Source: Acidobacteriota bacterium
GTDB taxonomy: Bacteria > Acidobacteriota > Terriglobia > Terriglobales > Acidobacteriaceae
Direction of reading: 5' to 3'
DNA: 64,000 nt
Assembly: GCA_031296105.1 (NCBI GenBank)
Contig: JARLGJ010000057.1
Span: 62,001 to 126,000 of the forward strand
Every line of letters starts with the position of its first letter. The stretch's first letter is position 1. The notes under the pieces are model-generated. The model searched no databases. It saw nothing but the letters and a program-made list of their open reading frames with translations, and was not told the origin of the DNA. Of the stretch, positions 355 to 15,443 are shown piece by piece. A program made the translations under genes and the position numbers.

Positions 355-395
355 CAAAAAGGTAGAGCGTGTCGAGGTACAAGACACGCTCTACC
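355..395 (-). terminator. Rho-independent terminator of the 496-3126 gene
   Basis: A perfect 13-bp stem (GGTAGAGCGTGTC at 361-373 pairing with 383-395) has a 9-nt loop. Read on the minus strand it is followed at once by TTTTTGGGCG (351-360). It lies about 100 nt beyond the stop of the secreted repeat protein. Confidence 0.85.
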
Positions 396-419
396 GGCAG
401 GAGCGGGAAATCACATTGG

Positions 420-498
420 TCAACTTCAGAGTCCTATCGTGGTTGCAAAGACTCTTTGCTGTGATTCACAGGCATGACCCTGTTTGGCTCTTCCCTTA
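420..498. repeat. Duplicated 3' flank, copy 1
   Basis: This noncoding stretch just past the stop codon of the 496-3126 gene closely matches 27923-28001, which lies just past the stop of the paralogous gene at 27999. Both contain CCTATCGTGGTTGCAAAG and GGCATGACCCTGTTTGGCT. Both carry a small GCAAAG/CTTTGC hairpin. Similarity running beyond the coding region points to duplication of DNA rather than selection on protein. Confidence 0.85.
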
Positions 499-3126
499 AT
501 TAGTCGCCGCCTCCGTATAGCTATACGTGTTCGATAAGCTGGGCGTGCCGTTCACCACCGAGTACAGCGTAACGTAAACGGTGCCGCCAGTCGTTGGTAG
601 AGTCGCCGTGTAGCTGGTGCCGGTGAGAGGGCCGACGTTCACCAGATCATGCCCGCCCGCGGTGGTGCCAACCCACAGGTAGTAGCCCGAGACGTTGGTG
701 CCCGCGGACCAGGTAAAGGTCGTCGAAGTTCCGGTCAACGTGCTGCCGTTCGCCGGACTCGTTATCGCCGCCGCCGTGCTGCTGTACTCCGTATAGCTGT
801 ACGTGTTCGACAAGCTGGGCGTGCCGTTCACCACCGAATACAGCGTGGCGTAAACGGTGCCGCCAGTCGTCGGCAGAGTCGTCGTGTAGCTGGTGCCGGT
901 GAGCGGGCCGACGTTCACCAGATCATGCCCGCCCGCGGTGGTGCCAAGCCACAAATAGTAGCCCGAGACGTTCGTGCCCGCAGACCAGGTAAAGGTCGTC
1001 GAAGTTCCGGTCAACGTGCTACCGCTCGCCGGACTCGTTATCGCCGCCGCCGTGCTGCTGTACTCCGTATAGCTGTACGTGTTCGACAAGCTGGGCGTGC
1101 CGTTCACCACCGAATACAGCGTAGCGTAAACGGTGCCGCCAGTCGTCGGCAGAGTCGCCGTGTAACTGGTGCCGGTGAGGGGGCCGATGTTCACCAGATC
1201 ATGCCCGCCCGCGGTAGTGCCAAGCCATAAATAGTAGCCTGAGACGTTCGTGCCCGCAGACCAGGTAAAGGTCGTCGATGCCCCGGTCAACGTGCTGCCG
1301 TTCGTCGGACTGGTCATCGCCGCCGCTGACACCGAGTATTCCGTGTAGCTGTACGTGTTCGACAAGCTGGGCGTGCCGTTCACCACCGAGTACAGCGTGG
1401 CGTAAACGGTGCCGCCAGTCGTCGGAAGTGTCGCCGTGTAGCTGGTGCCGGTGAGGGGACCAACGTTCACCAGATCATGCCCGCCCGCGGTGGTGCCAAG
1501 CCATAAATAGTAGCCCGAGACGTTGGTGCCCGCAGACCAGGTAAAGGTCGTCGATGCCCCGGTCAACGTGCTGCCGTTCGTCGGACTCGTTATGACGGCG
1601 GCGACCGGCAGGTTGATGACGTAGGCCGCACTGCTGACCGACGACGGCCAGTAGCCCGAAGCCACCGCAATGGCGCTGACCGTTTGGCTGGCGCTGACCG
1701 TGATCGGCCCGCTGTAAAGGGTCGAGCTGGTCGTCGGCGTGGAGCCGTCGGTGGTGTAGTAGATGGCGGAGCCGCTGGTGGTATCGCTCAACGTGACCGT
1801 CTGCGCGCTGGTGTAGGTGCCGGCCGCAACCGAGAAGGTGGGCGCGGCAGCCAAGGGTGTGTTGCCGGTGAGCGCGACCGATTGCGAGCCCAGACTGGTG
1901 ACAATTGCAAGCGTTCCGGTAACGGTGCCGCTCTGCGTTGGAGTGAAGCCGACGGTGATGGTGCAGGACTGGTTCGCCTTCACCGTGGCGGAGGAGCAGC
2001 CACTGGCGCTGAAGGGAGCCGACGTTGTGGCCGACGTAACCGTCAGGTCGCTGCCGCCAGTATTGGTGATGGTCATGGTGGCCTGGCCGGTGGAACTGGG
2101 TCCGGCGCTAATGGTCATTGCAGTCTCGGAGAGCGTTGACACCGCGGGCGGCACATAGTACTCCACCGTCAACGTTGGCGCCCAACCCAGAAGGCTTCCG
2201 GAGTTGGTCCAAAAACCACGGAAGCAGGCGTCGGAGGTGGTGCAGTCCGTAGTTCCCTGGTCGCTTGCCGTGGGATCGATAGCAGTGGCGTACCCACCCG
2301 TGGGGTTGTAGTAGCCAGGAGTCTCGGCGTCCAGGTTGATAAACGCCCAACCGTAGTTCGTCTTGGTTCCGCTCACCCAGGCCTGCACGTCCGCGGTCAT
2401 TGCATCGGAGGTCCAGGTCTGCGCCGCACAGTTGTATGGGGCGGTGGTGTAGAGCGTACCGTTGCTATTGAAGGTGCAGTCGTTGGACGTTACGGTGTAC
2501 ACGGCAATTTGATTTGTGGCATCGTAGTCGCCGCCGGGATTGGTCCACGTTGTGGTGGGGTAATACTGGTAAGTCCAAGTCGGGTCGCCGGTGGCAGCCT
2601 GATAGCCCCCACCATGTCCGCCGACGGGGTTATAGGTTCCATATGCAGTGAAGTCGCCGTTGTACCAGGTCGTTAACGGCGTGGCGCTAGTAGTCACCGC
2701 CTGGGTCCAGGGCTTTTCCATGTCATAGAGGGCGACAGGATGCGTGGTTGTGGTGTCTCCCGAGCCCGGTGTGCCGGCGCTGCCTGCGATCATATTGACG
2801 TACATGGTCAGGGTGGCACTGGTGACGACAGCGCCGCTTGGAATGTAGTTCTGAACGTAGAACTCGACGAGCCCGTTCTTTACACCGCCGCCGCCGGAAC
2901 CGACGAACATAGCCGGACCTGCGCTGGAATTGTTGTTGTATGCGCCATAGAGAGTAGATACCTGGCTCTGGCAGCCGGTTGGAGCTGTGGTGTTGGTGCC
3001 ATTCGTCGTGCAGCCACCGATGGTTACTGTCTGACTCGTCTGCGCCCAGAGGGCCTGACCGGCGAGCAATCCTGCAAGAGCAATCAATAGAATGGCGTGC
3101 CGCATTGTGTGATGCCGCATTTGCAT
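496..3126 (-). CDS. Secreted multidomain repeat protein (DNRLRE-like, ASH, CHB_HEX, 4 Ig-like repeats)
   Basis: An 876-residue exported protein of unknown function, probably a surface or adhesion-type protein. The signal peptide is residues 1-28 (cleavage near LWAQ). Residues about 30-325 resemble DNRLRE/disaggregatase-type beta domains. About 330-425 is an ASH/choice-of-anchor-D module ([22 protein letters not shown]). About 430-505 is a CHB_HEX_C_1 module ([19 protein letters not shown]). Residues 507-876 are four near-identical 92-residue repeats beginning [11 protein letters not shown] and ending [10 protein letters not shown]. The start is fixed by AAGGAGA about 5 nt upstream of the ATG. 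A TTGACA-N17-TAAGTT promoter and a terminator make it a single-gene unit. The C-terminal part is paralogous to the gene at 27999-31760. I saw no enzyme motif. Confidence 0.85.
499..1604 (-). repeat. Four 276-bp tandem repeats, copy set 1
   Basis: The period is exactly 276 bp (92 codons); for example, TACTCCGTATAGCTGTACGT recurs at 785 and 1061. The units differ by scattered substitutions ([10 protein letters not shown] versus [14 protein letters not shown] versus other codons). They encode four Ig/FN3-like beta domains of a secreted protein. Copy number is likely to vary by recombination, including with the set at 28002-29107. Confidence 0.9.
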
Positions 3127-3497
3127 ACTTTCTCCTTAAAGCAGACCTGACTTTCCTGACCCTAGTTGGCGGAGAGACGATAGCGGTGCGAATGATAGGG
3201 CAAATCGTCTCTCTTAGACGACACTGGTGTGTTTACCTAATTCACCAATTCTGCTAACTTAATTTGGGACTAGGTACTTGTCAATTCAGAATAGGAATAA
3301 AATCGCGCACGGATAGGCATCGGGCACGAAGTGCGGACGGGCGCCTGCCCCGAGACAGGGTTGAAAGCAGTTCGATGCCGTTTCGTTCCAACGTCAGAGC
3401 GCCAACCTGCGGCCTGGAGGAGACGGGCAGTGCCGTGAGTGGCTTATGCGTTGATGGAACCTAAGGACTGGCGAACGAGATGAAATGGGAGAGCGGG
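3127..3497. other. Divergent intergenic region with leader hairpins
   Basis: A non-coding region between the minus-strand repeat protein and the plus-strand small exported protein. It holds the promoter at 3256-3284 and a leader of about 120 nt for the minus gene. The leader contains an AGAGACGAT/ATCGTCTCT inverted repeat (3173-3181/3204-3212), which overlaps a second one, TCGTCT/AGACGA (3205-3210/3216-3221). I see no clear plus-strand promoter. Confidence 0.5.
3256..3284 (-). promoter_or_regulatory. Sigma70-type promoter for the 496-3126 gene
   Basis: On the minus strand, a perfect TTGACA -35 box (3284-3279) is separated by exactly 17 nt from a TAAGTT -10 box (3261-3256). Transcription would start near 3249. 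This leaves a leader of about 120 nt before the ATG at 3126. Confidence 0.6.
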
Positions 3498-3830
3498 ATG
3501 CGCTATGGGGTGATGGCGTTGCTGCTGGTACTGGGTGGGCTAAGCATTGCGGCAGCGGCTCAAAGCGGAACAATAAGCAGTGCTGACGCAAACGAAATGG
3601 CCGGCTTCCGGGCATTCATTGTCGAGCACCCACGCGCCTTGGCATTGCTGAAGAAGAGGCCCTGGGCGCTGCAAACAGCGGAGTTTGCCGAGGACTTCCG
3701 CTCGGTGGGCGACTACTTGGCGAAACATCGGAGGGTGAAAGCTCTGGTAAATAATGATCCGCATTTCTTCGATCAGTTAACGGCCGATCCGCGGGCCGGT
3801 GGCGGGCATAAACACCGCTGGTGGTGGTGA
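3498..3830 (+). CDS. Small exported protein of unknown function
   Basis: A protein of about 110 residues. It has a clear signal peptide (MRYGVMALLLVLGG..., Ala-rich cleavage region AAAAQSG) and a short mature domain rich in basic and aromatic residues, ending GGGHKHRWWW. I chose the ATG at 3498 because GGGAGAG lies just upstream and the signal peptide begins there; an in-frame ATG at 3480 would add six residues with a weaker ribosome site. A hairpin at 3860-3885 follows the gene. I do not recognise the family. The repeated charged segments (KKRPWALQTAEFAEDF, KHRRVKALVNNDPHFF) suggest a helical domain. No partner is evident. Confidence 0.65.
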   Translation: MRYGVMALLLVLGGLSIAAAAQSGTISSADANEMAGFRAFIVEHPRALALLKKRPWALQTAEFAEDFRSVGDYLAKHRRVKALVNNDPHFFDQLTADPRAGGGHKHRWWW

Positions 3831-3859
3831 TACAACCTGGCACCAGGAATGCATTGATG

Positions 3860-3892
3860 AAGGGCGCGGCCGAGGCCGTGCCCTTTGCCTTT
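3860..3892 (+). terminator. Terminator-like hairpin after the small exported protein
   Basis: An 11-bp stem (3860-3870 with 3875-3885, one G-U pair, CGAG loop) is followed by a weak T-rich stretch, TGCCTTT. It sits between the convergent ends of the small exported protein and the cytochrome b-c gene. Confidence 0.5.
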
Positions 3893-3919
3893 GGTGTGAC
3901 AGGGGAACTGGAGGCTGAA

Positions 3920-5314
3920 TCAACGAGGGGCCGTGGAAGAACTGTGTTTTGGCCACAGATGTATGGAGCATTGGCGCGAGTCAAGCGACTGGATATATGA
4001 AGCCAGGTCGGCAAGTTCCGAGGGGGAGAGTCGATACGCAGGCATGAGAGCCGAGCGCGTGACAAGGCGCGGATTACGCACATACGCGGCGATCTCCTGG
4101 GGCGTGCGTCCGCGTGCCGCCAGGTTTGACAGATCGGGTCCGACAGGACGCCCCCCCAGTCCTTTTACGGTATGGCAATAGCCACATTGGTTCGCGGCAT
4201 AGAGTTGGCGGCCTCGAAGCTCTGCTACAGCCGCTGGCCGGCTCGCGATAGTGGAAACATTGTAAGGGAGGGTATGCTGCCAGGCCGACAACGTCAGATA
4301 GACGACGGCGGCAATCGCCGTGCTGGCAACCGCAGTAGCCAGCGGACGCCCGGCGGAGCGGCGACGGCGAGCATTGTCAAGAAAAGGCACTGCAAAAAGC
4401 AACAACAAACCGATGCCCGGGACGAGTAGACTCCCCACCCATTCCCACCGGCCAGGAAAGAACGTGAGTAGCTGAAAGAGCCAGAGGAAGAACCACTCCG
4501 GCCGGGGCTCGTAGCTGCCGTCGAGTTGTTGCAAAGGCGTGGAATGAGGCGGACCGCCAAGAATAGCGATCATCAGCCAAAGGCCTAAAACAGGCACAAA
4601 TACGCAAAGCAGACGGCGCACATGCTCCGGGAAGAAGCGGTAACCAGGAGTAGCGGGCGGAGCACTTTCCGCATCACAATCACATTCGTCCAAGCCGTGA
4701 CAACGAACAAGATAGACATGAACGGCAGCAAACAGCATCAACAAGGCAGGAAGAAAAAGAATGTGAAAGACATAAAAGCGCGTAAGAGAGAGTCCACTAA
4801 CGCTGTAGCCTCCAAGAAAGCCACAGGCGATCTGCCGTCCGGCGATGGGGACCTGTGAGATCAACGCAGACGTGACAACGGCGGCGGAATAAGAGCGAGC
4901 GCTCCAGGGCAGCAGTGAGCCGGTAAACAAAAGTCCTGCCGCAACCATCAGAAGAAGAACACCAGTGATCCAAGTGAATTGGCGCGGAGCCTTATAGCTG
5001 CCGCGTATGAAATTAGTGGCGAGGTGCGTCATCATCGTCAGGAGAAAGGCTCCGGCGCCCCAATAGTGGAAGGCGCGGAGCAGGCGGCCAGCGGGAACAT
5101 CCGAGACAATGAACGAAAGCGAGGCAGCAGCTTTATCAGGAGAGGGACTGTAGTAGAGCGCAAGAGAGCAGCCCGACAGTGCCAACAATAGAAACAGAAG
5201 AACGAGGAGGCTGCCCAGTACACTTCCCCAGGGAGCCCGCGCGGCGAGACGTTGCACAAGAAACGGCCGCAAATGCTGCTGCCAGCCAATTCCATCCAGA
5301 AGTGTGCGCATCAT
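3920..5314 (-). CDS. Cytochrome b fused to cytochrome c (bc complex core subunit)
   Basis: A 464-residue membrane protein that should form the quinol-oxidising core of a bc-type complex. The cytochrome b N-terminal part carries both heme-ligand pairs: H83-x13-H97 and H184-x14-H199, the latter spacing being b6f-like. The C-terminal b part has PEWF (272-275) in place of the usual PEWY. After the last membrane helices comes a cytochrome c domain with CGYCH (377-381) and a Met ligand at about 424 (SALMPAY). A Cys-rich patch (CDCDAES) lies around 211-217. The start overlaps the upstream stop as ATGA (5311-5314), and GGAGG lies four bases upstream. It is the last gene of the cluster and the natural partner of the Rieske domain encoded just upstream. 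What the c domain reduces is unknown. Confidence 0.9.
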   Translation of the reverse strand: MMRTLLDGIGWQQHLRPFLVQRLAARAPWGSVLGSLLVLLFLLLALSGCSLALYYSPSPDKAAASLSFIVSDVPAGRLLRAFHYWGAGAFLLTMMTHLATNFIRGSYKAPRQFTWITGVLLLMVAAGLLFTGSLLPWSARSYSAAVVTSALISQVPIAGRQIACGFLGGYSVSGLSLTRFYVFHILFLPALLMLFAAVHVYLVRCHGLDECDCDAESAPPATPGYRFFPEHVRRLLCVFVPVLGLWLMIAILGGPPHSTPLQQLDGSYEPRPEWFFLWLFQLLTFFPGRWEWVGSLLVPGIGLLLLFAVPFLDNARRRRSAGRPLATAVASTAIAAVVYLTLSAWQHTLPYNVSTIASRPAAVAELRGRQLYAANQCGYCHTVKGLGGRPVGPDLSNLAARGRTPQEIAAYVRNPRLVTRSALMPAYRLSPSELADLASYIQSLDSRQCSIHLWPKHSSSTAPR

Positions 5315-6519
5315 CCTACCTCCACGAGGAGTTGGCCGTTGTCGATCTTCCAGTCAAGTTGTGGCAGCGGCGCGGGCGGCGGACCGGAGAGGACCTCTCC
5401 GGCCGGCGAGAAGGCTCCAGCGTGGCATGTACAACGGAACTGCTGAAGCAGTTCATTCCATAAGACGCGGCAGCCAGCATGGGAACAGCGGCTTGAAAAG
5501 CACGTAAGGCGCGAGCCGGAGCGAAAGACGTAAACTGGTTCGCTGACGCGCTGGGTGTAGAAACCGTTTTCTGCCTCGTAATCGAGCTGAAGCGTAAGCA
5601 TGCGCTCTTCGGCAATCGCATCGAGCGTGGCAAGCCGGATCCAGCGGCGCGAGGGCCTCTGCCGCGGCACAAGAATCGAACCCCCGAGAATCGCGCCGAT
5701 ACCCAGTGTTGCGCAAAGAACACCGGCTCCGGCGGCGGCCCCGCGAATGAATCGGCGGCGGTCCGTCGAAAGCGGCGCGGCAGAGGGCGCATCGGCGCGG
5801 GCGCGACCGCCCAGAGCCAGCAGATGCAGGCCGTGGATCGCACGGGTAGCTTCAATTCCCTTCGGGCAGGATGCGGCGCAGTTGAGCTGGGTGCGACAGC
5901 CGTAGGAGCTATCGAGCATTCGATCCATCCGCGCCTGGTGCAGCGCATCCCGCGGATCGTTCTGCAGCTCAAACGCGCGCAATAGAACGGCCGGCCCCGC
6001 GAATCCAAGCCCTGGCTGGCACTGTGTGCAACTGGAAACACAACAGCCACAGCCGATGCAGTCGGACGAAAAGTCGCCGGGATAGAGCCGTTCGCCGTAG
6101 GGCCCCGGGGAATCCGCACCGCCGGAAAGGTCGTGGGGTTGGAAGAACACTAGATTCTCCGAGAACTTCTCGAAGAAAGATGACATATCAACCGCAAGAT
6201 CCTGAACGAGAGGAAAGTTGTTAAGCGGCGCCAGCGTAATCAGCGACGGTTTGCGCAGATGCGCAATCGTAGTTTTGCAGGCCAGGGCCTCCCGTCCATT
6301 GACCAGCAGGGCGCAAGAGCCGCAATATTCGGCGCGGCAGGCATGACGAAAAGCGAGACAGGGATCGAATTCCTGCTGAATGCGAAGCAGGAGATCGAGG
6401 ATCGTCGTGGTTGAAGGTGAGGGAACCGCGAGACGAAAACTGTCGTAGTGCGACGACTGACGGTCAGTCCCGCGAAACACGCGAACCGTGACGAGTGGTG
6501 GGTTGGAGGATCTACTCAC
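5311..6519 (-). CDS. SdhB/FrdB iron-sulfur protein fused to a Rieske protein
   Basis: A 402-residue fusion. Residues 1-240 are an SQR/QFR iron-sulfur subunit with a complete ligand set: [2Fe-2S] C61, C66, C69, C81; [4Fe-4S] C154, C157, C160, C218; [3Fe-4S] C164, C208, C214. Their spacing matches E. coli SdhB (C149/152/155/159/206/212/216). Then come a linker, a twin-arginine-like motif (DRRRFIRG, 253-260), a hydrophobic helix (about 262-285), and a Rieske domain with CSHAGC (345-350) and CTCHAGAF (from 363). The start is a GTG that overlaps the stop of the upstream anchor gene as GTGA (6516-6519), with GGAGAAG upstream. The reading frame stays open further upstream, but that sequence has no homology and overlaps the anchor gene. 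I infer a cytosolic SdhB part and a periplasmic Rieske part, tying an SQR-like complex to the bc module. Confidence 0.93.
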   Translation of the reverse strand: MSRSSNPPLVTVRVFRGTDRQSSHYDSFRLAVPSPSTTTILDLLLRIQQEFDPCLAFRHACRAEYCGSCALLVNGREALACKTTIAHLRKPSLITLAPLNNFPLVQDLAVDMSSFFEKFSENLVFFQPHDLSGGADSPGPYGERLYPGDFSSDCIGCGCCVSSCTQCQPGLGFAGPAVLLRAFELQNDPRDALHQARMDRMLDSSYGCRTQLNCAASCPKGIEATRAIHGLHLLALGGRARADAPSAAPLSTDRRRFIRGAAAGAGVLCATLGIGAILGGSILVPRQRPSRRWIRLATLDAIAEERMLTLQLDYEAENGFYTQRVSEPVYVFRSGSRLTCFSSRCSHAGCRVLWNELLQQFRCTCHAGAFSPAGEVLSGPPPAPLPQLDWKIDNGQLLVEVG

Positions 6520-6905
6520 GAAGCTTCTCCGCCGATGTGCGGCACCATGCCGGCCAACGAGGGATACGGGAAACAGCGATAAATGGAAAGCCATGCAGCA
6601 AGAATGACGGCAACGGCGAGGACCAGCAAAATCCAGGTCACCCATCGATGGGAAGCCAGATCGACGATCCGGAAATCCAGCAGGATGACGCGCACGCCGA
6701 GAGCGGCATGAAAAGTCACAACAAGCAGCAACAGAAACTGCAACAGCGGCTGCCAGGTGAATAGGAGGTGCGCGACGATAAGAATAACAGCGAGCAGGGC
6801 GGATATACGCTGCGCCACCCACGCCCACATACCCGCGCGGCCTGGGCCGGGGAATTGTGAGGCAGAAGCAGAGACGGTGGTCGGGCTAGAGCTGTTTTCT
6901 TCCAT
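6516..6905 (-). CDS. SdhC/D-like heme-b membrane anchor
   Basis: A 129-residue membrane protein with three predicted helices (about 29-50, 55-77, 88-108). It resembles single-subunit cytochrome b anchors of succinate:quinone oxidoreductases (AQRISALLAVILIVAHLL, TFHAALGVRVILLDF). H46 and H66 are candidate heme ligands. The ATG at 6905 was chosen because AAGGAG lies nine bases upstream. It starts inside the flavoprotein gene (20-bp overlap), and its stop overlaps the next start. Its role would be to anchor the flavoprotein/FeS pair and pass electrons to or from quinone. A second anchor subunit is not encoded nearby. Confidence 0.85.
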   Translation of the reverse strand: MEENSSSPTTVSASASQFPGPGRAGMWAWVAQRISALLAVILIVAHLLFTWQPLLQFLLLLVVTFHAALGVRVILLDFRIVDLASHRWVTWILLVLAVAVILAAWLSIYRCFPYPSLAGMVPHIGGEAS

Positions 6906-8787
6906 GAGACCGGGCTCCTTGAGGATGGCTTGCATCCCGCGGCGTGATGTCACCATTGAAATCGTTACTCGGAGCAGGATCCGAAACATGGTCGCGATGC
7001 CGCGCGCTATCGGCTTCCAGCGGGGCCGTTGTGCTTTCGGTGATGCCCTCGTGAGCGCGCTTCTTCCCTTTCTTGCGGTGTTCCCTGAACTCGGCCACGG
7101 ATAAGTAGGGGAACTCAACGGGGCGGCTTTCCATTTCGAAGCGGCCATTTTCGGTGTGACGCAAGAAGCTGTTAAACATTCCATACTCGTCGCGCTGTTC
7201 TTCAAAATCAAGGCGGCCATGAGCGCCGCGGCTCTCCTGACGGCGCGCGGCGGAGGCAATAACCAGCCGCGAGATGGCAATCATATTCCGAAGGTCGAGG
7301 GCGGCGGCAAAAGCGGAGTTAGAGGCCAGGTGACCACCGACCGAGACATGAGCGCTTTCGCCCTCTATGGCATCAACGGCGGTGATTGCCTGATCGAGCT
7401 TGGCGCGTTCCCGCACGGGGCCGACGTTCAGCCAGTTGATTTTCTGTAACTCGGAACACAGATGAAATGACGAAAGTCTGGAGGATGTGTGGAATGGCTG
7501 GCCGAGACGCAGCACCATATCTTCGATTTCCTTCGCCGGAGACTCCTCAACCGCGGAGCGCAGCGTAAGGCTGGCGGCAATGGCTTTTCCGGCAAGGCGG
7601 CCAAATACGCACGCAGCAGCTAGCCCGTTGCCGCCATGGCGGTTTGCACCATGGATGCCGCCGGCATCTTCGCCGACGACGAACAGACGCGCGAGCGAAC
7701 CGCGACCCTCCTCTGAAACCTGCGCCCCGCCCATGAAAAGCTGCGCCGCTGGTATCAGTGGGATCCGGCAGCGGGCGGGATCGTAGCCAAACTGCCGGAA
7801 GCGCTGCGCCATTAAGGGATACTCGCGCGAAATAAACTCCTCTCCCAGGTGGGATGCGTCCATTTCAATGCCACCTGAGGCGCAAGCGCGGCCACTGACG
7901 ATTTCAATATAGGAGCGGCGGCATAGAAGATCGCGGCTGGAACCCTCGCCGGAGCCGGGGGACTTGTGAAGCAGCGGCTCGCCGAGACCGTTGTAGAGAT
8001 GAGCGCCACTGGTGCGCAGTCCCTTCTCAAAGACCCCGCCGGTCGCGCTGCTTCCTGGCACCAGCAGGCAGGCGGGGTGGAACTGTATCATCTCCATGTC
8101 CCGCAGCCAGGCACCAGCCCGGAAGAGCATCGCCAAGCCGTCGGCGGTCTTGTCCGCACCAGATGCGTGGAACTGGTATTGCGCGGGGCCGCCACCGGTG
8201 GCTACCACGGTGGCGCCTGAGGTGACCGCCCGCCACTCGCCACGGCGCTGATCGAAAAGAAGAGCCCCGGTGACGCCCGAACCATCCGAGTTAAGCAGAA
8301 GATCGACGGCGCGGCACTCCTCCCACACGGGAATGCGGCGCTTCAGAATTTGCTCGGCAAAACATGTGATCACATGCAGCCCGGTCGTGCTCCCGTGGAA
8401 GACACGATGGTCGTTGGAGCCATCTTCCATCTCGCGCATCATACGCCGGCCCTGACCATCGCGGTCGAAATAGCAACCGAAGCGATTTTCCATCTCAAGG
8501 ACGGTGGCGGGAGCACACTCGACAAGACGCCTGACGAGACGTTGATCGTTGATGCATTGGCCGGTCTTTATGGTGTCCCGGAAGTGGCGCTCACAGGCAT
8601 CCGCGCCTCCGAAAGCGACGTTGAGACCGCCGCTCACCATCCGGCTGCTGCCGCCTTTGCCGCGCAGGGCGCGGGTGACGATCAGAATCCGCAGCGATGG
8701 GTCCGCGTCCAGGGCGGAGAGTGCGCACATTGCGGCTCCCGCTCCCATTCCCAGGATGAGAAGATCGACTTGGCTGCGATGGATCAT
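6886..8787 (-). CDS. SdhA/FrdA/NadB-family flavoprotein with altered active site
   Basis: A 633-residue flavoprotein of the succinate dehydrogenase/fumarate reductase/L-aspartate oxidase family. The FAD-binding GMGAGAA motif is at 13-19, and the GGVFEKGLRTSGAH, QFHPA and HGANRHGGNGLA motifs are present. Two family hallmarks are missing. The region where SdhA carries its FAD-linking His reads GGSSRMVSGG (45-54) with no His, so FAD should be non-covalent as in NadB. The substrate-loop His of (H)YTMGG is Gln (AQLFMGG, Q349). The C-terminal tail is long and charged. It starts as ATGA with the ECF S gene. The anchor and SdhB fusion downstream make a membrane-bound, quinone-linked enzyme likely. 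The substrate is unknown and is probably not plain succinate or fumarate. Confidence 0.88.
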   Translation of the reverse strand: MIHRSQVDLLILGMGAGAAMCALSALDADPSLRILIVTRALRGKGGSSRMVSGGLNVAFGGADACERHFRDTIKTGQCINDQRLVRRLVECAPATVLEMENRFGCYFDRDGQGRRMMREMEDGSNDHRVFHGSTTGLHVITCFAEQILKRRIPVWEECRAVDLLLNSDGSGVTGALLFDQRRGEWRAVTSGATVVATGGGPAQYQFHASGADKTADGLAMLFRAGAWLRDMEMIQFHPACLLVPGSSATGGVFEKGLRTSGAHLYNGLGEPLLHKSPGSGEGSSRDLLCRRSYIEIVSGRACASGGIEMDASHLGEEFISREYPLMAQRFRQFGYDPARCRIPLIPAAQLFMGGAQVSEEGRGSLARLFVVGEDAGGIHGANRHGGNGLAAACVFGRLAGKAIAASLTLRSAVEESPAKEIEDMVLRLGQPFHTSSRLSSFHLCSELQKINWLNVGPVRERAKLDQAITAVDAIEGESAHVSVGGHLASNSAFAAALDLRNMIAISRLVIASAARRQESRGAHGRLDFEEQRDEYGMFNSFLRHTENGRFEMESRPVEFPYLSVAEFREHRKKGKKRAHEGITESTTAPLEADSARHRDHVSDPAPSNDFNGDITPRDASHPQGARSHGRKQL

Positions 8788-9395
8788 GGTTGGACGGATG
8801 TCCGATCCTCTGGGGAGTCAGCGGCCACCTCCGGCGAGGGAACGTCCGGCATAATTGTTCCAGACGCTTGCATGCGGCGAGCGACTGGAGTTGCGAACGC
8901 TCCACCCAATGCGCCAAAAATCATGGCCCCTCCGGCGCGCAACAGAGAGTGCGTAACCGCCAGAGAAAAATCGAGACCAAGCAACCGATCCTGCACGATG
9001 CTGACCAGAACCCAGGACACGCCCATGAAAGCTCCGGTGATCGCGCTGAGAGCTACCGAGCGGGTCAGCCTGGGCAGCAGACGGAAGACAATATCGGCGA
9101 TGAGTCCAGCGATGACAAAGCTGAGCAGTTGCATGGGGCCCGCGTGGCCCATGCCGAACAACAACGACATAAGCCCGGCAAGAAAGCCCGTGAGAGTGGC
9201 CACCCAGCAGGCCCGGATACAGGCGCGCGCCAGCAGCAAAAAGAACACGAGCGGAAGAAGACGGTGGCCAGGCAAATGCATGGGAATGCGCAGGAACTGT
9301 TGCGCCAGGATTATGCCAACGGCGGAAAATCCGGTGACTAGCGCTTCACGCAGCGTAAAGCCGAGCCAGTATTTGGTATTCGTTTGACCGGTCAT
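8784..9395 (-). CDS. ECF transporter S (substrate-binding) subunit
   Basis: A 203-residue protein with about five to six hydrophobic helices. After a short polar N-terminus (MTGQTNTKYWLGFTLREALV) comes a helix-rich body including RIPMHLPGHRLLPLVFFLLL and an Ala/Gly-rich last helix. Size, topology and position directly after the ECF ATPase and T genes identify it as the S component, which sets substrate specificity. I cannot match it to a known vitamin family. The ATG at 9395 overlaps the T-gene stop as ATGA, with AAAGG about eight bases upstream; upstream in-frame sequence is a shadow of the T gene. Its stop overlaps the flavoprotein start, which implies that the imported compound and the flavoprotein are linked. 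Confidence 0.75.
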   Translation of the reverse strand: MTGQTNTKYWLGFTLREALVTGFSAVGIILAQQFLRIPMHLPGHRLLPLVFFLLLARACIRACWVATLTGFLAGLMSLLFGMGHAGPMQLLSFVIAGLIADIVFRLLPRLTRSVALSAITGAFMGVSWVLVSIVQDRLLGLDFSLAVTHSLLRAGGAMIFGALGGAFATPVARRMQASGTIMPDVPSPEVAADSPEDRTSVQP

Positions 9396-10090
9396 GGGTG
9401 AACCTTTCTGCAGATGAGTTGGGACCGAAGCGTCGGCTGCGCTGGGGTATCTTCGCCAATTCCCCGCTGGCGGGCAGCCACCGACACCTCGTCGGCAAGA
9501 TGAAGAGCGCGCATGAAAATCGGGATTGCCAGACAGCGGCACCACTCTGCCCAACAGAGGGGATTGATGAGCTGACGCGGAGCTACACGGGCGCCACGTA
9601 GCTGCTGAAGCCAATATATTTCGCGAGCTTCGCGGGTGATGAGCGGCACAAAATGCAGGCTCATCGTAATAACAAAGGCGAGCCGCGACGGTAGAAAGCG
9701 TCCGAAGACAGCCAGAATATCGCTGACGCGCGTCGTGCGCTGTAGCCAAAGGCCGGGCAAACATAGCAGCCCCAGCCGAATCGAGACAAGCAGGGCGGCG
9801 GGAAGGGCGGCCATCCCCTGGCGCAAAAGAAGGACTGCCACTACCAGCGGGGCTTGATAAAGCACAACCCTGGCGTCTTGCAACATTTGACGCCATCCCA
9901 GGCGGGCCAGCGCATACAGCAGGAACCAGATGAGTACGAGAATCAACGCGGCAGTAAGCCGTGAGTTGATAAGATCGGCCAGCGCGAGCAGCCCAACCAT
10001 GCACAACTTAACCGCAGCCGGAAGTCGTTGGATGGGAGTCGAGCGCGCCATGTATTGACCGGGAAAACCGCGCCGGCTGTCTCTAGGCAT
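9392..10090 (-). CDS. ecfT: ECF transporter T (energy-coupling membrane) subunit
   Basis: A 232-residue membrane protein of the EcfT/CbiQ family. Helices in the first half are followed by the two cytoplasmic coupling-helix motifs, seen here as LQQLRGARVAPRQ and VAARQRGIGE (the X-A/R-R-G type that contacts the ATPases). The ATG at 10090 has GGGAGG eight bases upstream and overlaps the ATPase stop by eight bases. The T subunit transmits ATP hydrolysis to the S subunit encoded immediately downstream. Confidence 0.87.
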   Translation of the reverse strand: MPRDSRRGFPGQYMARSTPIQRLPAAVKLCMVGLLALADLINSRLTAALILVLIWFLLYALARLGWRQMLQDARVVLYQAPLVVAVLLLRQGMAALPAALLVSIRLGLLCLPGLWLQRTTRVSDILAVFGRFLPSRLAFVITMSLHFVPLITREAREIYWLQQLRGARVAPRQLINPLCWAEWCRCLAIPIFMRALHLADEVSVAARQRGIGEDTPAQPTLRSQLICRKVHP

Positions 10091-11414
10091 CAAGCAGCCT
10101 CCCATGGGAGAGAATGAACCGCCGCCGGCCCCAGGCTGCGGGCAGGGGGCCGTGAGAAACAAGCAGGATGGCCATGTTGTCAGCGCAAGCATAGTACTCA
10201 AGAACGCGGAGAACATGACGGGCTAGTTCGTCGTCGAGACCGGTGAGTGGCTCGTCAAGCAAAAGAACCTCGGGGCCGGCCGCAAGTAGAGTAGCCAGTG
10301 CGACCAGATGACGCTCACCGTGGCTGAGGCAAAGCGGCGAACTTTCCGCCAACGGACCCAGGCCGCAGAACGCGAGAGCCTCCTGTGTCCGGCGGGACGC
10401 AGCAGGATTGCGGCTGCGGCGTCCCGAGAAACCCACTTCGCGCGCGACAGTCTCTTCGAACAGCAGCATGTCGGAGGCCTGAGGCAGCAGAAGAACTTTG
10501 CGCGCTAGCGGCGCCGGTGAGGTGACACTGGTGCCGCGGAAGCGAACCTCGCCGAGTTGGGGCCGTTGGCCGGCAGCAAGCAAGCGCAGCAACGTTGATT
10601 TTCCAGCAGCGTTTTCTCCGAGAATGTGGACCTGGTCGCCGGGATATAGCGCAAAATCCAACTGCGCCAGCACCGGCGCCGAGCAAGCATCCTGGCAACA
10701 GATGCCAGATGTGGTTAGCAGCGGCTCGCCAAACGCCATCGCCGGCGGAGGCGCAGGAGCAGGCGGCAGTGGCGGCAGCGAAAGACGAGTACGAGACGCC
10801 GGGGGAAGAGAGATCTGTATATCCCAGAGAGGATCGCCTGGAGCGGCCTGGTGCTGGGAGACAATCACGGCACACCCTTGGGATTTGAGATGAGCGATGC
10901 AATGGCGAAGCTCTGTCTGCCCGGCCAGGTCAAGCTGGGAGAAGGGCTCATCAAGCAAAAGGAGCGAAGGCTTCATGGCCAGCAGCGCGGCCAGCAGGAC
11001 GCGATGCTTCTGCCCCATAGAGAGCATCTCCAGGTTGCGGTGACGCAAGGGGAGCAGCGAGTGCAGCTTTAGCTGCTCCTCAATACGAGACGACATTTCT
11101 TCGCCGGAAAGATGCAGGGTGTGCAGGCCGAGGGCAATCTCCTCCTCGACGGTGGTGCACAGGAGCTGAGTCTCGGGATTCTGCATGGCGAGACGGGGAT
11201 TCTCGGGAAGCTTGCGCGCCTGCCAACTGCTCTTGCTATTCTCCGCCGAGCACCTGGCGAGGGCGCGGAGAAAGGTTGACTTACCGCTGCCAGAGGGACC
11301 GCAGATAAGAGCAGCCTGACCGGGGTATAGATCCAAGGAGAGAGACAAGTCAATGCGGCCACCGTTGGCGTAGCAGTGCTGCAGGCGCTCCACGGAAAGC
11401 AGAGGCTCGGTCAC
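10083..11414 (-). CDS. ECF transporter ATPase, two ABC domains fused
   Basis: A 443-residue cytoplasmic protein with two ABC ATPase domains in tandem, equivalent to EcfA and EcfA' in one chain. Domain 1 has Walker A GPSGSGKST, signature LSMGQ and Walker B LLLLDEP. Domain 2 (after a Pro/Ala-rich linker at about 205-225) has Walker A GENAAGKST, signature LSHGE and Walker B VLLLDEP followed by LVSHG. Both sites look competent, though the signatures deviate from LSGGQ. The start is GTG, overlapping the previous stop as GTGA (11411-11414). It powers the T and S subunits encoded next. Confidence 0.9.
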   Translation of the reverse strand: MTEPLLSVERLQHCYANGGRIDLSLSLDLYPGQAALICGPSGSGKSTFLRALARCSAENSKSSWQARKLPENPRLAMQNPETQLLCTTVEEEIALGLHTLHLSGEEMSSRIEEQLKLHSLLPLRHRNLEMLSMGQKHRVLLAALLAMKPSLLLLDEPFSQLDLAGQTELRHCIAHLKSQGCAVIVSQHQAAPGDPLWDIQISLPPASRTRLSLPPLPPAPAPPPAMAFGEPLLTTSGICCQDACSAPVLAQLDFALYPGDQVHILGENAAGKSTLLRLLAAGQRPQLGEVRFRGTSVTSPAPLARKVLLLPQASDMLLFEETVAREVGFSGRRSRNPAASRRTQEALAFCGLGPLAESSPLCLSHGERHLVALATLLAAGPEVLLLDEPLTGLDDELARHVLRVLEYYACADNMAILLVSHGPLPAAWGRRRFILSHGRLLDA

Positions 11415-12133
11415 TGTTGATTCCTCCGCTTCTTACTTTGGAAGGTCTTACGGCTGGCGACCTCCCAGCGATCGCCGGTGATGCGGCGCAGCGGCACCAC
11501 GGGCGACTGTCCCAGTAGAAGCGGGCGCAGATATTCGTGCGCGTCGATCCAATCTTGCGGGGCCGGAACTTCAGCGTCGTTCTCTAGAGACACGGGAATA
11601 ATGCCGGCTCCAAGCAGCTCAGATACCTGAATTCCTTCGTCGAAGGGCCGCAGGCGTCCGTACTCCATCCAGCGCCCAGACCAACCGGCCGCAGTCAAGC
11701 CAACGGCGGCAGCCGCACCAACCAGCCCGCGACCGCCACGCCATATCTGGAATGGCAGGTCGCCCATAGCGGCAAGCGCGTCCTTGGTCTCAACTTCTTG
11801 CCAACTGGCAACTCTGCCGAAGTCTATCAGCGAGGCCGGAACATCGGCGGCGACAACCAGGCCGGGTGAGCTTTCGGCTTCCGCCAACTGCTCGATATGA
11901 GCGGCGGCAAGAGAAACAAGGACAGGAAGGACTTCCCTGCCCTGCGCCTCGAGAACAATGCAGGAAGCTTTGTTGTTCGTTGTACCGCGGATTCCGCGGT
12001 ACAGATGATGGCCCACCGAACCGGCAAACACAACTCCAGCGGGCAACAGCGGCTCAAACATGCGGGCCAGCCGGGCCGTGCTAAGTTTGCCGCCGCCGAT
12101 GTCGGTATCGTCAATGCCAATCAGAATACGCAT
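11411..12133 (-). CDS. TiaS-like GIDDTD protein, copy 2
   Basis: A 240-residue cytoplasmic protein. The N-terminus MRILIGIDDTDIGGGKLSTA matches the opening of the archaeal TiaS family (tRNA-Ile2 agmatinylcytidine synthetase), in which the DDTD aspartates belong to an ATP/Mg-binding kinase-like domain. A second conserved segment, GLVGAAAAVGL, lies near residue 137. The RNA-binding and zinc parts of archaeal TiaS are absent, so tRNA modification is unlikely. It is paralogous to the gene directly upstream (same motifs, same C-terminal LL/GI-IPVS region). The stop overlaps the ECF ATPase start. I infer ATP-dependent activation or conjugation of the imported compound; no direct evidence supports that. 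Confidence 0.7.
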   Translation of the reverse strand: MRILIGIDDTDIGGGKLSTARLARMFEPLLPAGVVFAGSVGHHLYRGIRGTTNNKASCIVLEAQGREVLPVLVSLAAAHIEQLAEAESSPGLVVAADVPASLIDFGRVASWQEVETKDALAAMGDLPFQIWRGGRGLVGAAAAVGLTAAGWSGRWMEYGRLRPFDEGIQVSELLGAGIIPVSLENDAEVPAPQDWIDAHEYLRPLLLGQSPVVPLRRITGDRWEVASRKTFQSKKRRNQQ

Positions 12134-12134
12134 G

Positions 12135-12866
12135 CTACTCGGCTATCGCGGCGTCGCGCGGCGGTTTACCCTGCGCCAGCCATCGACCTTCTTCGAAGTT
12201 GATCGGCAGAACAGGCCGGCCTCCCCAGAGGCGGGGGCTGATCCAGCCGTTGGTTGTGATCAGTGCATCAGGAGCGGGCACCGAGGCATCACGATCCATG
12301 GAGACGGGCAGAATGCCGCGAGCAATCAACTGCTCGACACGCACCGGATCTGGCAGATCGCGCAGCCGATTGAACTCGAGAAAGCGCCCTGACCAACCGA
12401 ACACGCTCAGCCCGACAGCCGCAGTGGCGCCAATAATTCCGTCGTTCGTACCACCATGGCCGGAGAGATGAACGCCAGCAGCCGAGGTGACGGCGACAGC
12501 GTGCTCCTGAGTCTCAATGGCGTGTGTACAGGCGAGACCGAATTCAATCAAGCCAGTGAAATCGGCATCCTCGCGGGCCACACACAAGCCGGGATCGCTG
12601 CCAGGACTGGCCAGTTCCGCAATATGCTCAATGGCAAGGTCAATCAGTACAGGAACCAGGCTGGCATCGGCAACTTCAACAACCGCACAGGCCGGGCTAT
12701 TGTGGGACGTGTATGGAATGCGCTCATCCATCAGGAGCTGGTGACGCAGCACCCCCCATAGCGGAACACCGGAAGGAAGCTTCTTCTCAAACATGCGAAC
12801 CAGCCGGCCGGTGCCGATCGGAGCCCCAAGTACGTCGGTATCGTCGAACCCTAGGTAAATTTTCAT
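12135..12866 (-). CDS. TiaS-like GFDDTD protein, copy 1
   Basis: A 243-residue protein starting MKIYLGFDDTDVLGAPIGTG, with a later GIIGATAAVGLSVFGWSGRF segment that its neighbour also has (AAAAVGLTAAGWSGRW). Both copies end with a region containing RGILPVS/AGIIPVS and V.APD. It is a full-length paralogue of the next gene, separated from it by a single base, so the two probably act as a heterodimer or on successive steps. It lies 33 bp after the TonB receptor gene; the ribosome site is weak. The family match is to the N-terminal part of TiaS only. The function in bacteria is unknown to me. Confidence 0.7.
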   Translation of the reverse strand: MKIYLGFDDTDVLGAPIGTGRLVRMFEKKLPSGVPLWGVLRHQLLMDERIPYTSHNSPACAVVEVADASLVPVLIDLAIEHIAELASPGSDPGLCVAREDADFTGLIEFGLACTHAIETQEHAVAVTSAAGVHLSGHGGTNDGIIGATAAVGLSVFGWSGRFLEFNRLRDLPDPVRVEQLIARGILPVSMDRDASVPAPDALITTNGWISPRLWGGRPVLPINFEEGRWLAQGKPPRDAAIAE

Positions 12867-12899
12867 ATTACGCGTCTCTTATCCATGACCAATTACATT

Positions 12900-15443
12900 T
12901 CAGAAGCGATACTCGCTCGCAACATACAAGCTGCGTCCAGGTTCCGGATATCCTTCCTGGTAGTAATACAGATGATCGAAGAGGTTCTTGACGCCGAAGC
13001 GCAGCGAGGCGTGCCGGAAGAATGGAACCTTGGCAGACAGGTCGACGACGAACCATGAGGGCGCCACCGCAGGAGTAACTGAGCTGCCGTCAAGCTGGTA
13101 ACGAACTCCGCTTACAAAACGGCCGGTGGCGGACATATTAAACCTGTGCGGAAAGCGCACCACTGCGGTAGCCACGAGCTTGTGCTTGGGTGTTCCCGTA
13201 AGGTAGGCAACCGGAACCGTGCCCGTCTGGGCGTAGATCGATGTGGTGGTAACCCCGCCCTGCGAAGTTCTGTTTAGAAAACCGTAGTTGAAGTCAAAAA
13301 CAAAGTGAGACAGCGAAGTGCTGCGCACCGTGAACTCAACTCCCTGCCGGGTTTCCTGCCCGACATTGACAAATACTTTACAGGCCGCCGGGGTCGAACA
13401 CAGCGAAGCATAAACAGTGTCAGTTACATTCACAACTGCATTCTCGATTGCATTGCGAATATCGCTTCGGAACAGATCGATTTGCGCTACCGTGCCAGCG
13501 CCCATAGCACGGCTGTAACCCGCCGTCCAGTTTGTTGCATTTTCGGGGCCGAGATCAGGGTTCGGAAGCGCCTGACCGAGGCGGCCCGAATAACGCTCCT
13601 TGAGCATGGAGTAGCGGCTCTTACTGGAAACCGCCCCGTATACCGAGCTGTTTTCGCTGAGTGCATAAGAGACTGCAGCAGACGGATCGAACTTCCAGAA
13701 GTATGCAGTGCAGTCTGCGTAAGTCGCGCCTTGCGGAAATAGCTGACAGGAGAAGGGCACGACAGTATTCTTGCTGAGATTGAAGTTCTGCGCTTGCAGA
13801 CCATGCAGGTGGCTGATGCTGATGCCACCCGTGACTTGCAGTTTCTTAGACAACGTAACGACATCCTGCATTCCCAGAGCCCATAGTTGATCGCGATCCG
13901 TTCGCCACGGTTGGACATATGAAGTGGAACTGCTACCGCCGCCACCCCCGCCACCCCCGCTATTTGGCCAGATAGGAATCGCGGTTTTCAGGCCCTCTGC
14001 ATCGCCTTGCAGATTTACCAGGCTCGAGTTGCCCGTCACGCCACCTTCCCGGTGAGTGTCATCTTTGAAGTGCAGTGAAATACCAATCTGGTTGTGGCGA
14101 ACTTTCTCAGTGGACAAAACCGCTGACCCGCCATAGGTGTGATCGTCGTATCGAACGATTCCTGTGTTTCCGCTACTGGTCATGCTGGAGTAAGTCTCAT
14201 CATTGTACTCATTCGTCTGCGTTGGATAGTAGTCGAAGTAAGAGCGTAATTTAAGGTACGTCTTCCCGCTGATTTGTAAATTAGCCAGCAAATAGTAGCT
14301 AGTCTTGTCCCATAACGGCCAGGTCCAGTACTTAGCGCTATCGCAGCGTGCTGCTACGCTGTCGCTCTGCCCAGATGCACACACCGCCTGAACTCCGGCA
14401 TATGGCGGAACACCATAATTTGCTTTCTGCGTTATGTAGCTGAAGACATATTCCGAGTTCGCGTTTGGCGTCCAACCAACTCGCCCGCTATACCTCTCGT
14501 CGCGGCTGTAGGAGCGCTCGCGCCGATGCGTCGGTTGATAGGTGTTGACCTTAAAGGCCCCGGGTAGCGGCGTGCTGTCCTCCTGGGTCCAGTCAAGCTC
14601 TCCAAACAGAAAGTAGTGTTCGGCGCGCGCCCCTATGTATGCCCCCGAATCCAGTCCGTCGCCCGTGTGCGTGCCAATATGGCTCTCAACCTCGAAACGG
14701 TTCGTTGGTTGGCGGGTCACCAGATTCACCGCGCCACCCATAACATTAGGACCAAGCAGGGCGGACGTGTAACCCTTGGCAACCTGAACCTCTGCAATGT
14801 TACCGGTAACAAAGCGCTTGTAGTCTGTCTGCCCATCATACGGCATGTAAATCGGAATTCCGTCGATGTACAAAGGAACTTGCCGGGTATCAAAGCCGCG
14901 CAAGTAGATTCCTACCTGGTTGCGCGACGAGTAGTGTTGCAGGGAAATGCCGGGAAGGCTATCTGCGGCCTGCCCCAACTCAGTCGCATGACGTTCTTCG
15001 AGCTCGGACTGGGTAATAGTGTCGGCAACGGGAGAAAGCGGCGACACCGCAGAGACAACTGAGACCTGCTCCTCTCCAAGGTGGAATGGGTGGTCGGGAT
15101 CGCGTTCGGATATCTGCTGGATCAGATTCCGCAGAGAGTCAACATAGTCATCAAGTTGCTTGGAATCGAGTGTAACTGATGGCTCCGGAGGCAGCCCTTG
15201 CAGGAACTCAGGATGGATGCGCATCCAGCCAGTAATATCAGTGCGAATACCTTGCAAAAGGCTGCTTTGCTCAGCCTGCGTCTGCGATGACAGGCTCTGC
15301 AAGGCCGCGAGATCTTGCGACCAGGTAGCGGATCTCTCCTGCGCCCGCGCCATCGACACAAAACTGGCCAGGCTCATGCCTACGCAGAGCAACAATTTCA
15401 GGATTCCGAAATAATTACGATGACATTCACTGAGTTGTCTCAT
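12900..15443 (-). CDS. TonB-dependent outer-membrane receptor
   Basis: An 847-residue receptor. The signal peptide ends near residue 35 (SMARAQ). A helical N-terminal extension (about 36-125) of unknown type precedes the plug domain (about 135-260: DSLPGISLQHYSSRNQVGIYLRGFD, YIDGIPIYMPYDG, GGAVNLVTRQP). The rest is the 22-stranded barrel ending in YVASEYRF with a C-terminal aromatic residue. A poly-Gly/Ser run near 498-510 lies in a predicted surface loop. Unlike the receptor at 23821 it lacks a carboxypeptidase-regulatory domain, so it looks like a small-molecule (siderophore/cobalamin-type) receptor. It sits between the hydrolase-fold gene and the DDTD/ECF genes, and so is the likely outer-membrane entry for the ECF substrate. 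Confidence 0.88.
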   Translation of the reverse strand: MRQLSECHRNYFGILKLLLCVGMSLASFVSMARAQERSATWSQDLAALQSLSSQTQAEQSSLLQGIRTDITGWMRIHPEFLQGLPPEPSVTLDSKQLDDYVDSLRNLIQQISERDPDHPFHLGEEQVSVVSAVSPLSPVADTITQSELEERHATELGQAADSLPGISLQHYSSRNQVGIYLRGFDTRQVPLYIDGIPIYMPYDGQTDYKRFVTGNIAEVQVAKGYTSALLGPNVMGGAVNLVTRQPTNRFEVESHIGTHTGDGLDSGAYIGARAEHYFLFGELDWTQEDSTPLPGAFKVNTYQPTHRRERSYSRDERYSGRVGWTPNANSEYVFSYITQKANYGVPPYAGVQAVCASGQSDSVAARCDSAKYWTWPLWDKTSYYLLANLQISGKTYLKLRSYFDYYPTQTNEYNDETYSSMTSSGNTGIVRYDDHTYGGSAVLSTEKVRHNQIGISLHFKDDTHREGGVTGNSSLVNLQGDAEGLKTAIPIWPNSGGGGGGGGSSSTSYVQPWRTDRDQLWALGMQDVVTLSKKLQVTGGISISHLHGLQAQNFNLSKNTVVPFSCQLFPQGATYADCTAYFWKFDPSAAVSYALSENSSVYGAVSSKSRYSMLKERYSGRLGQALPNPDLGPENATNWTAGYSRAMGAGTVAQIDLFRSDIRNAIENAVVNVTDTVYASLCSTPAACKVFVNVGQETRQGVEFTVRSTSLSHFVFDFNYGFLNRTSQGGVTTTSIYAQTGTVPVAYLTGTPKHKLVATAVVRFPHRFNMSATGRFVSGVRYQLDGSSVTPAVAPSWFVVDLSAKVPFFRHASLRFGVKNLFDHLYYYQEGYPEPGRSLYVASEYRF

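Follow-up and report, generated by a model that had tools for sequence, protein, structure and literature searches.

In a 64,000-nucleotide stretch of DNA from a soil-type Acidobacteriota bacterium (GCA_031296105.1, contig JARLGJ010000057.1, positions 62,001 to 126,000 of the forward strand; hereafter the window), an operon on the minus strand encodes an iron–sulfur (Fe-S) subunit of the succinate dehydrogenase type (SdhB) that continues, in one reading frame, into a Rieske domain. This SdhB-Rieske fusion is genuine. Its gene follows those for an SdhA-like flavoprotein and a small membrane anchor, and precedes a gene for a cytochrome b that carries a cytochrome c domain. We tentatively favor the view that the four products form one complex, wherein a Rieske/cytochrome b-c core bears a tethered flavin head of the complex II type, electrons are more likely to enter the flavin than to leave it, and the head has been repurposed for another cytoplasmic substrate.

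The four genes occupy positions 8787 to 3920 and overlap successively by 20, 4, and 4 bases; none is interrupted by a stop codon. The coordinates therefore confirm a proposal of an initial annotation, made from the sequence alone, that four consecutive genes are joined by overlapping stop and start codons. All Pfam matches exceed the gathering score. These include FAD_binding_2 and Succ_DH_flav_C in the flavoprotein, Sdh_cyt in the anchor, Fer2_3, Fer4_8, and Rieske in the single frame of the fusion, and Cytochrome_B, Cytochrom_B_C, and Cytochrom_C in the last protein. Ligand motifs and Pfam domains were found for all redox centers, so that the same annotation was also right in stating that every center of the proposed electron path is encoded.

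The fusion protein (positions 5311 to 6519, minus strand; 402 amino acids, with a GTG start) begins with an SdhB domain formed by residues 1 to 240 (5800 to 6519). The ligands for its [2Fe-2S], [4Fe-4S], and [3Fe-4S] clusters are complete, and all 11 cluster cysteines are present (C61/C66/C69/C81, C154-C157-C160-C164, and C208-C214-C218). At residue 254 lies a twin-arginine motif, RRRF, and directly after it hydropathy indicates a membrane helix (5668 to 5748). The Rieske domain (5317 to 5547; Pfam E value 5e-10) carries the motifs C345-x-H347 and C363-x-C365-H366, with C345/H347/C363/H366 as cluster ligands and C350/C365 as the additional pair. The linker helix is predicted to place this domain on the periplasmic side. 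A twin-arginine motif precedes the Rieske helix in both fusions that we describe here, as well as in both aligned ordinary Rieske proteins of the second host genome. The fusion is also of interest for protein export, since it would require a twin-arginine signal that lies within the chain and follows an Fe-S domain that is folded.

The second fusion, found by profile and frame scan, resides in a genome from another family of the same class (G376), on a 4.4-kb contig (locus L018, G376:C347, positions 369 to 4410). It is 37% identical to the window protein and has the same layout, namely an SdhB domain, a twin-arginine motif at the same place (TRRKF), one hydrophobic helix, and a Rieske domain. 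The existence of this protein rules out a frameshift or a chance frame as the source of the fusion in the window. A flavoprotein gene lies directly ahead (42% identity between the products), and the order flavoprotein, mini-anchor, and SdhB-Rieske is that of the window. Because the same gene order recurs in another family, the tether has been kept over a large divergence. The window anchor (6516 to 6905, minus strand; 129 amino acids) is SdhC-like (Sdh_cyt, 1.9e-6 on the longer frame) and has three membrane helices by eye, and a hydropathy scan recognized all but the first of them. The anchor in G376 has roughly 70 amino acids and two helices, and the two proteins are 51% identical over 57 amino acids (E value 9e-17). 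His46 and His66 of the window anchor are candidate ligands of heme b, and both are kept in the alignment with the G376 anchor. Upstream of the G376 flavoprotein are genes for both subunits of class I fumarase and no transporter genes.

To describe the distribution of the fusion, up to four candidates were scored per genome with a profile made from the two proteins, and the resulting counts are lower bounds because a fusion can be missed. Full matches through the Rieske part were obtained in 2 of 399 genomes of the class (the window genome and G376) and in 0 of 388 genomes of another phylum. For the other 62 class genomes that exceeded the score, the match covered the SdhB part alone and ended at model position 319 or before. 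All candidates were scored in the 10 other genomes of the G376 family, and none gave a match. A single-sequence search of 396 genomes of the phylum is unfit to count fusions, given that G376 surfaced there by its SdhB part only. Among 18 candidates chosen as long frames or near relatives, no Rieske match was found on an SdhB frame, with one (L074) unjudgeable because it ends at a contig edge. Matches to SdhB occur in 154 plasmid records, none of which covers 80% of the query, and the operon was found at the DNA level in none of three congeners of the window genome (a single 68-base piece matched). A widespread fusion is thus rejected for the genomes sampled, among which its distribution is sporadic. 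In a limited search of open-licence literature, which included parts of PMC10238741, PMC8097209, and PMC12727194, no report of an SdhB-Rieske fusion was encountered.

The last gene of the operon (5314 to 3920, minus strand; 464 amino acids) encodes a cytochrome b part (4265 to 5314; Cytochrome_B, 4.4e-35) and a C-terminal cytochrome c domain (3923 to 4264; Cytochrom_C, 8.6e-11) with CGYCH at residue 377. Based on alignment to bovine cytochrome b, the heme ligands are H83/H97 and H184/H199, and the quinol oxidation (Qo) motif is PEWF at residue 272. As judged from the sequence, the hallmarks of a bc complex are all represented, including the four heme-ligand histidines and the Qo motif, the Rieske 2Cys-2His set with its disulfide pair, and a c-type heme. 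The proteins resemble bc1 and bcc complexes in their heme ligands, in PEWF for PEWY, in the Rieske boxes, and in the cytochrome c domain, but differ in that the Rieske subunit has an N-terminal SdhB and that cytochrome b and the heme c domain form one chain. In alignments, the Rieske boxes hold Gly and Phe where high-potential Rieske proteins carry Ser and Tyr. Such residue changes shift the potential by about 130 and 65 mV, according to an excerpt of PMC12954380. From these values, we arrive at an estimate of about +100 mV, comparable to the potential in menaquinol complexes.

In the window genome, PF00033 (cytochrome b) and PF00355 (Rieske) each match a single protein, in both cases one encoded by the operon, and therefore this Rieske/cytochrome b pair is without any other partner of those families. 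This observation is important for an alternative in which the Rieske domain serves as a direct periplasmic exit or entry point for electrons of the complex II part, bypassing menaquinone on the way to cytochrome c, and in which the cytochrome b-c became a neighbor later on and has a task of its own. The situation in G376 agrees with such a scheme, since no cytochrome b adjoins the fusion there and complete Rieske/cytochrome b clusters, two in number, are present elsewhere in the genome. However, the window cytochrome b would then be left with no Rieske partner. Moreover, the membrane would separate SdhB from the Rieske domain, and it would fall to the small anchor to conduct electrons from one face to the other. 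We consider this alternative very unlikely.

The flavoprotein (6886 to 8787, minus strand; 633 amino acids) is SdhA/TfrA-like (FAD_binding_2, 3.9e-47; Succ_DH_flav_C, 1.3e-22) and is predicted to bind flavin adenine dinucleotide (FAD) noncovalently. Its residues are given here in Escherichia coli SdhA numbering, from alignment. The covalent-FAD histidine (H45) is replaced by Ser in the window protein and by Cys in G376 and three aligned unfused relatives. Three of the five dicarboxylate-site residues are retained in the window (H242, R286, and R399), with the changes E255K and H354Q at the other two, whereas G376 retains all five. The window protein is alone among the aligned clade members in having lost E255 and H354, and it further exhibits Y355L and RTSGA in place of RGEGG. 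Because the H45 equivalent is Ser and E255 and H354 are replaced, succinate oxidation by this protein appears unlikely, and the succinate:quinone reductase-like function put forward in the initial annotation is not upheld.

The ancestry of the flavoprotein was assessed with a tree of 60 proteins, after 12 rows repeating the same genes had been dropped. The proteins of the window and of G376 belong to a clade of seven (support 100) together with unfused homologs from G590, G642, G435, G130, and G742. Within this clade, the pairing of the two flavoproteins from fused systems has a support of only 68, and the branch of the window protein is very long (2.21). In the unfused relatives examined, the genes run in the order SdhB, SdhC, SdhD, and SdhA and, on contigs that extend far enough, continue with class I fumarase. 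Given these operons with class I fumarase, the natural substrate of the seven-member clade is very probably fumarate or succinate. Relatives with noncovalent FAD are described, in the portion of PMC9557727 consulted, as reducing fumarate and not oxidizing succinate.

Three of the unfused loci also merit separate mention (L087, L088, and L089, from G642, G590, and G435). These encode members of an SdhA clade with Cys for the FAD-attachment His, again in the arrangement SdhB-C-D-A plus class I fumarase where the contig reaches, and are possibly fumarate reductases that have been annotated as succinate dehydrogenases.

Two further views of the flavoprotein need to be weighed. The first is the forward scheme, in which electrons from a succinate-type dehydrogenase reach the tethered bc part by way of FAD, Fe-S clusters, and quinone and continue to cytochrome c. 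This scheme is on balance unlikely. It would make use of all the encoded redox centers, it fits with the fumarase genes that adjoin the relatives, and it could end at the caa3-type oxidase of the genome; the low-potential type of Rieske box would suit menaquinol, judging from part of PMC12954380. However, it is difficult to reconcile with the Ser in place of the FAD histidine, with E255K, H354Q, and Y355L, and with the change of RGEGG to RTSGA. In addition, fumarase is absent from the list of genes in the window operon, and the genome owns a separate housekeeping succinate dehydrogenase in which the FAD histidine is kept.

The second view is that the flavoprotein has ceased to be an enzyme, and that the main function of the operon is to provide a bc-type complex in which the Rieske subunit drags along an SdhB remnant. 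Decay or moonlighting of this kind would account for the two missing catalytic residues and the long branch, and the only Rieske protein and cytochrome b of the genome are indeed located here. Two of the three congeners live with neither Rieske protein nor cytochrome b. In contrast, a decaying gene set would not be expected to look like the ten genes of the entire operon, which have no stops or frameshifts and a G+C content at codon position 3 that exceeds that at position 2 in each gene. The full set of SdhB cluster cysteines and the retention of H242, R286, and R399 likewise speak against it. We regard this view as distinctly unlikely.

The interpretation that we favor, a repurposed flavin head on a Rieske/cytochrome b-c core, would operate as follows. 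The head, with FAD and three Fe-S clusters, would be fixed on the cytoplasmic side through SdhB-Rieske. SdhB would thus lie inside, with the Rieske domain and heme c outside and a single helix crossing the membrane next to cytochrome b and the small anchor; both this topology and the existence of a single complex are inferred from the protein sequences. Electrons from quinol or from the b hemes would pass through the SdhB clusters into the flavin. Because the FAD histidine is gone and two catalytic residues are replaced, this reductive direction is more likely than succinate oxidation; with a noncovalent FAD of low potential, electrons would by analogy more often enter than leave the flavin. 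The Rieske domain and heme c would hand other electrons to a cytochrome c and then to a caa3-type oxidase. An acceptor chain for cytochrome c is present in the genome, where a single COX1 gene is clustered with genes for NrfD, ActD, and a COX2 that has a c domain; this cluster represents the alternative complex III, with a caa3-type oxidase, on which the genome otherwise relies. Comparison with G376 and the unfused relatives suggests that the window copy derives from a fumarase-linked succinate/fumarate enzyme and has probably been repurposed to act on another substrate in the cytoplasm, which may be the one imported by the transport genes of the same operon.

Several points weigh against this interpretation. 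The covalent link between SdhB and Rieske is the only physical tie between the two parts that the sequence establishes. In G376, with no cytochrome b adjacent to the fusion on its 4.4-kb contig, the Rieske part may not need one. The thermodynamics and the direction of electron flow are argued from analogy, and the lost catalytic residues and the branch length of 2.21 fit decay as well. The quinone residues of E. coli-type SdhB (P160, W163, W164, and H207), which belong to a site at its interface with the anchor, are absent from the aligned window protein; most of these are likewise missing from the unfused relatives, and from E. coli FrdB too. TfrA is only the top one of several NCBIfam names that fall below the cut-off for the flavoprotein. 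The transport genes are tied to the redox genes by position alone. Finally, a structure model of the fusion based on three sequences reached a predicted local distance difference test score of 36.7 and is unusable.

A more specific form of the mechanism would be a quinol-bifurcating reductase. Oxidation of quinol at the Qo site would split its electrons, with one passing by way of the fused Rieske cluster to heme c and the other from the b hemes through the SdhB clusters to noncovalent FAD of the complex II type, where a cytoplasmic substrate below the potential of menaquinone would be reduced. We believe this form to be unlikely. If it is true, then the low-potential branch of a complex III would here terminate in a complex II head. 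The logic of such a branch has so far been proposed for NAD(P)H formation in anammox bacteria, as set out in part of PMC12954380.

Precedents for a flavin module on a Rieske/cytochrome b core are the anammox complexes of Kuenenia (Kuste4569-4574 and Kustd1480-1485) and a cluster in a congener. The anammox complexes share with the window system a Rieske/cytochrome b core and a cytoplasmic flavin/Fe-S module, and electrons are proposed to run from the b hemes to the flavin (PMC12954380, in part); conceptually, they are its closest counterpart. They differ in having a separate NAD(P) oxidoreductase and multiheme c proteins, whereas in the window a complex II head is joined through SdhB-Rieske and there is a single heme c. 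Consistent with this distinction, Pfam searches of the four window proteins revealed no Pyr_redox match, the flavoprotein being of the SdhA type instead. The third congener of the window genome (G749; L072, positions 2806 to 8773) has a Rieske/cytochrome b/multiheme c cluster together with a 652-amino-acid protein with Pyr_redox_2, Fer4_20, and Fer4 domains. With its FAD-NAD(P) oxidoreductase of the cytoplasmic type, this cluster resembles the anammox complexes for which NAD(P)H production has been proposed.

Compared to complex II (SdhABCD/FrdABCD), the window proteins have the flavoprotein fold, an SdhB with three Fe-S clusters, and a His-bearing anchor. The distinctions are a Rieske domain on SdhB, one short anchor in place of SdhC plus SdhD, no covalent-FAD histidine, two catalytic changes, and a cytochrome b-c gene in the operon. 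Because the FAD histidine and two of the five catalytic residues are missing, this is not a standard complex II. Class F complex II, represented by Mycobacterium smegmatis Sdh1 (PDB 7D6V), is also a complex II with a Rieske-type cluster, which is located in the membrane anchor, as described in the portion of PMC10238741 consulted. Among PDB entries, the window flavoprotein matches that of 7D6V best. However, the window cluster belongs to a Rieske domain, recognized by Pfam, that is part of the SdhB chain, the fusion matched only the SdhB chain among those of 7D6V, and the window anchor of 129 amino acids is not the six-helix anchor that houses the Rieske-type cluster in class F. A third comparison is offered by the thiol:fumarate reductase TfrAB of methanogens, because TfrA is the top NCBIfam name of the flavoprotein. 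The score of 386 bits is below the family cut-off of 718, and the SdhB of the window carries a Rieske domain. TfrB carries CCG domains.

The hybrid of complexes II and III proposed in the initial annotation is supported in the sense that parts of both types are encoded in one operon and are covalently tied by SdhB, a transmembrane helix, and Rieske. Neither the succinate:quinone reductase function nor a fixed four-gene unit is upheld. Although the window has all four genes, G376 has no adjacent cytochrome b, and the unfused flavoprotein and SdhB relatives reside in sdhBCDA-fumarase operons. Occurrence of the genes apart from each other, which that annotation had named as evidence against its proposal, is therefore found for the flavoprotein/SdhB clade, and not for the fusion itself. 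With SdhB and Rieske exposed on opposite faces of the membrane, the fusion would be a genetically fixed link between complexes II and III. Complex II is conspicuously missing from most respirasome structures, according to part of PMC10238741. Channeling, or the driving of a complex II head by the low-potential branch of a bc complex, is directly testable by expressing the four genes.

The operon extends upstream of the flavoprotein gene by six more genes, which overlap by 4 to 8 bases or are separated by gaps of 1 and 33 bases. The complete order of ten genes, all on the minus strand, is TonB receptor, TiaS-like 1, TiaS-like 2, ECF (energy-coupling factor) ATPase, T, and S components, flavoprotein, anchor, SdhB-Rieske, and cytochrome b-c. 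The TonB-dependent receptor (12900 to 15443) matches PF00593 (2.9e-29) and PF07715 (6.2e-19). The two proteins that resemble the TiaS N terminus (protein 1, 12135 to 12866; protein 2, 11411 to 12133) are 41% identical to each other, and protein 2 matches NF040849 (3.7e-8) and, at only 0.004, the TiaS entry in PDB. The double ATPase (10083 to 11414) has two ABC_tran stretches (1.2e-45), and the T component (9392 to 10090) matches CbiQ (9e-8). The stop of the S-component-like gene (8784 to 9395) overlaps the flavoprotein start by 4 bases; its assignment is weak (PF09819, 6.3e-4, below the cut-off; TIGR02185, 0.0046).

One possibility is that the operon serves metal or cofactor acquisition, wherein some scarce metal or cofactor is taken up and processed with the help of the TonB, ECF, and TiaS-like proteins and is oxidized or reduced by the redox complex. 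In support of this, the ten genes are continuous, and TiaS-like relatives occur near genes for molybdenum storage, MoaE, or molybdopterin-domain proteins. TiaS-like homologs are present in 7 of 396 genomes of the phylum, including that of the window. In one of these genomes, the TiaS-like gene adjoins two TonB receptors (34 to 36% identical to that of the window), and a molybdopterin-domain protein is encoded on the same stretch; in another, MoaE is about 6 kb away on one contig. These hints that the upstream half of the operon (8784 to 15443) functions in the uptake of a metal or metal cofactor are best taken as a lead. However, the six other TiaS-like stretches contain no flavoprotein, SdhB, or cytochrome b matching those of the window, the G376 fusion has fumarase rather than transporters upstream, and the S component lacks a confident family. 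An acquisition role for the whole operon is therefore doubtful. The molybdenum storage case among these genomes is G021 (L100, 1862 to 3454), where a TiaS-like gene is 24 bases from a gene resembling molybdenum storage protein beta on the same strand (E value 1.8e-78 to a solved protein).

The composition of the operon is ordinary (59.2% G+C, compared to 60.5% for the window). A 13-pair hairpin at 3858 to 3887, in the space that separates the cytochrome b-c gene from a convergent one, is a possible terminator, with a T tail on the plus strand only; the hairpin consensus scan found 16 such elements compared to 13.4 expected, which makes its support weak. A promoter scan was uninformative (4 found, 4.2 expected). 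Elsewhere in the window, a second FAD_binding_2 flavoprotein of 479 amino acids (32584 to 34023, minus strand) is unrelated to the operon by position. An 876-amino-acid protein of the secreted type (496 to 3126) has four near-identical repeats of about 95 amino acids at its C-terminal end, and a 2414-amino-acid protein (16492 to 23736) combines nine CHB_HEX_C_1/Fn3-associated repeats with NHL-type beta-propeller repeats.

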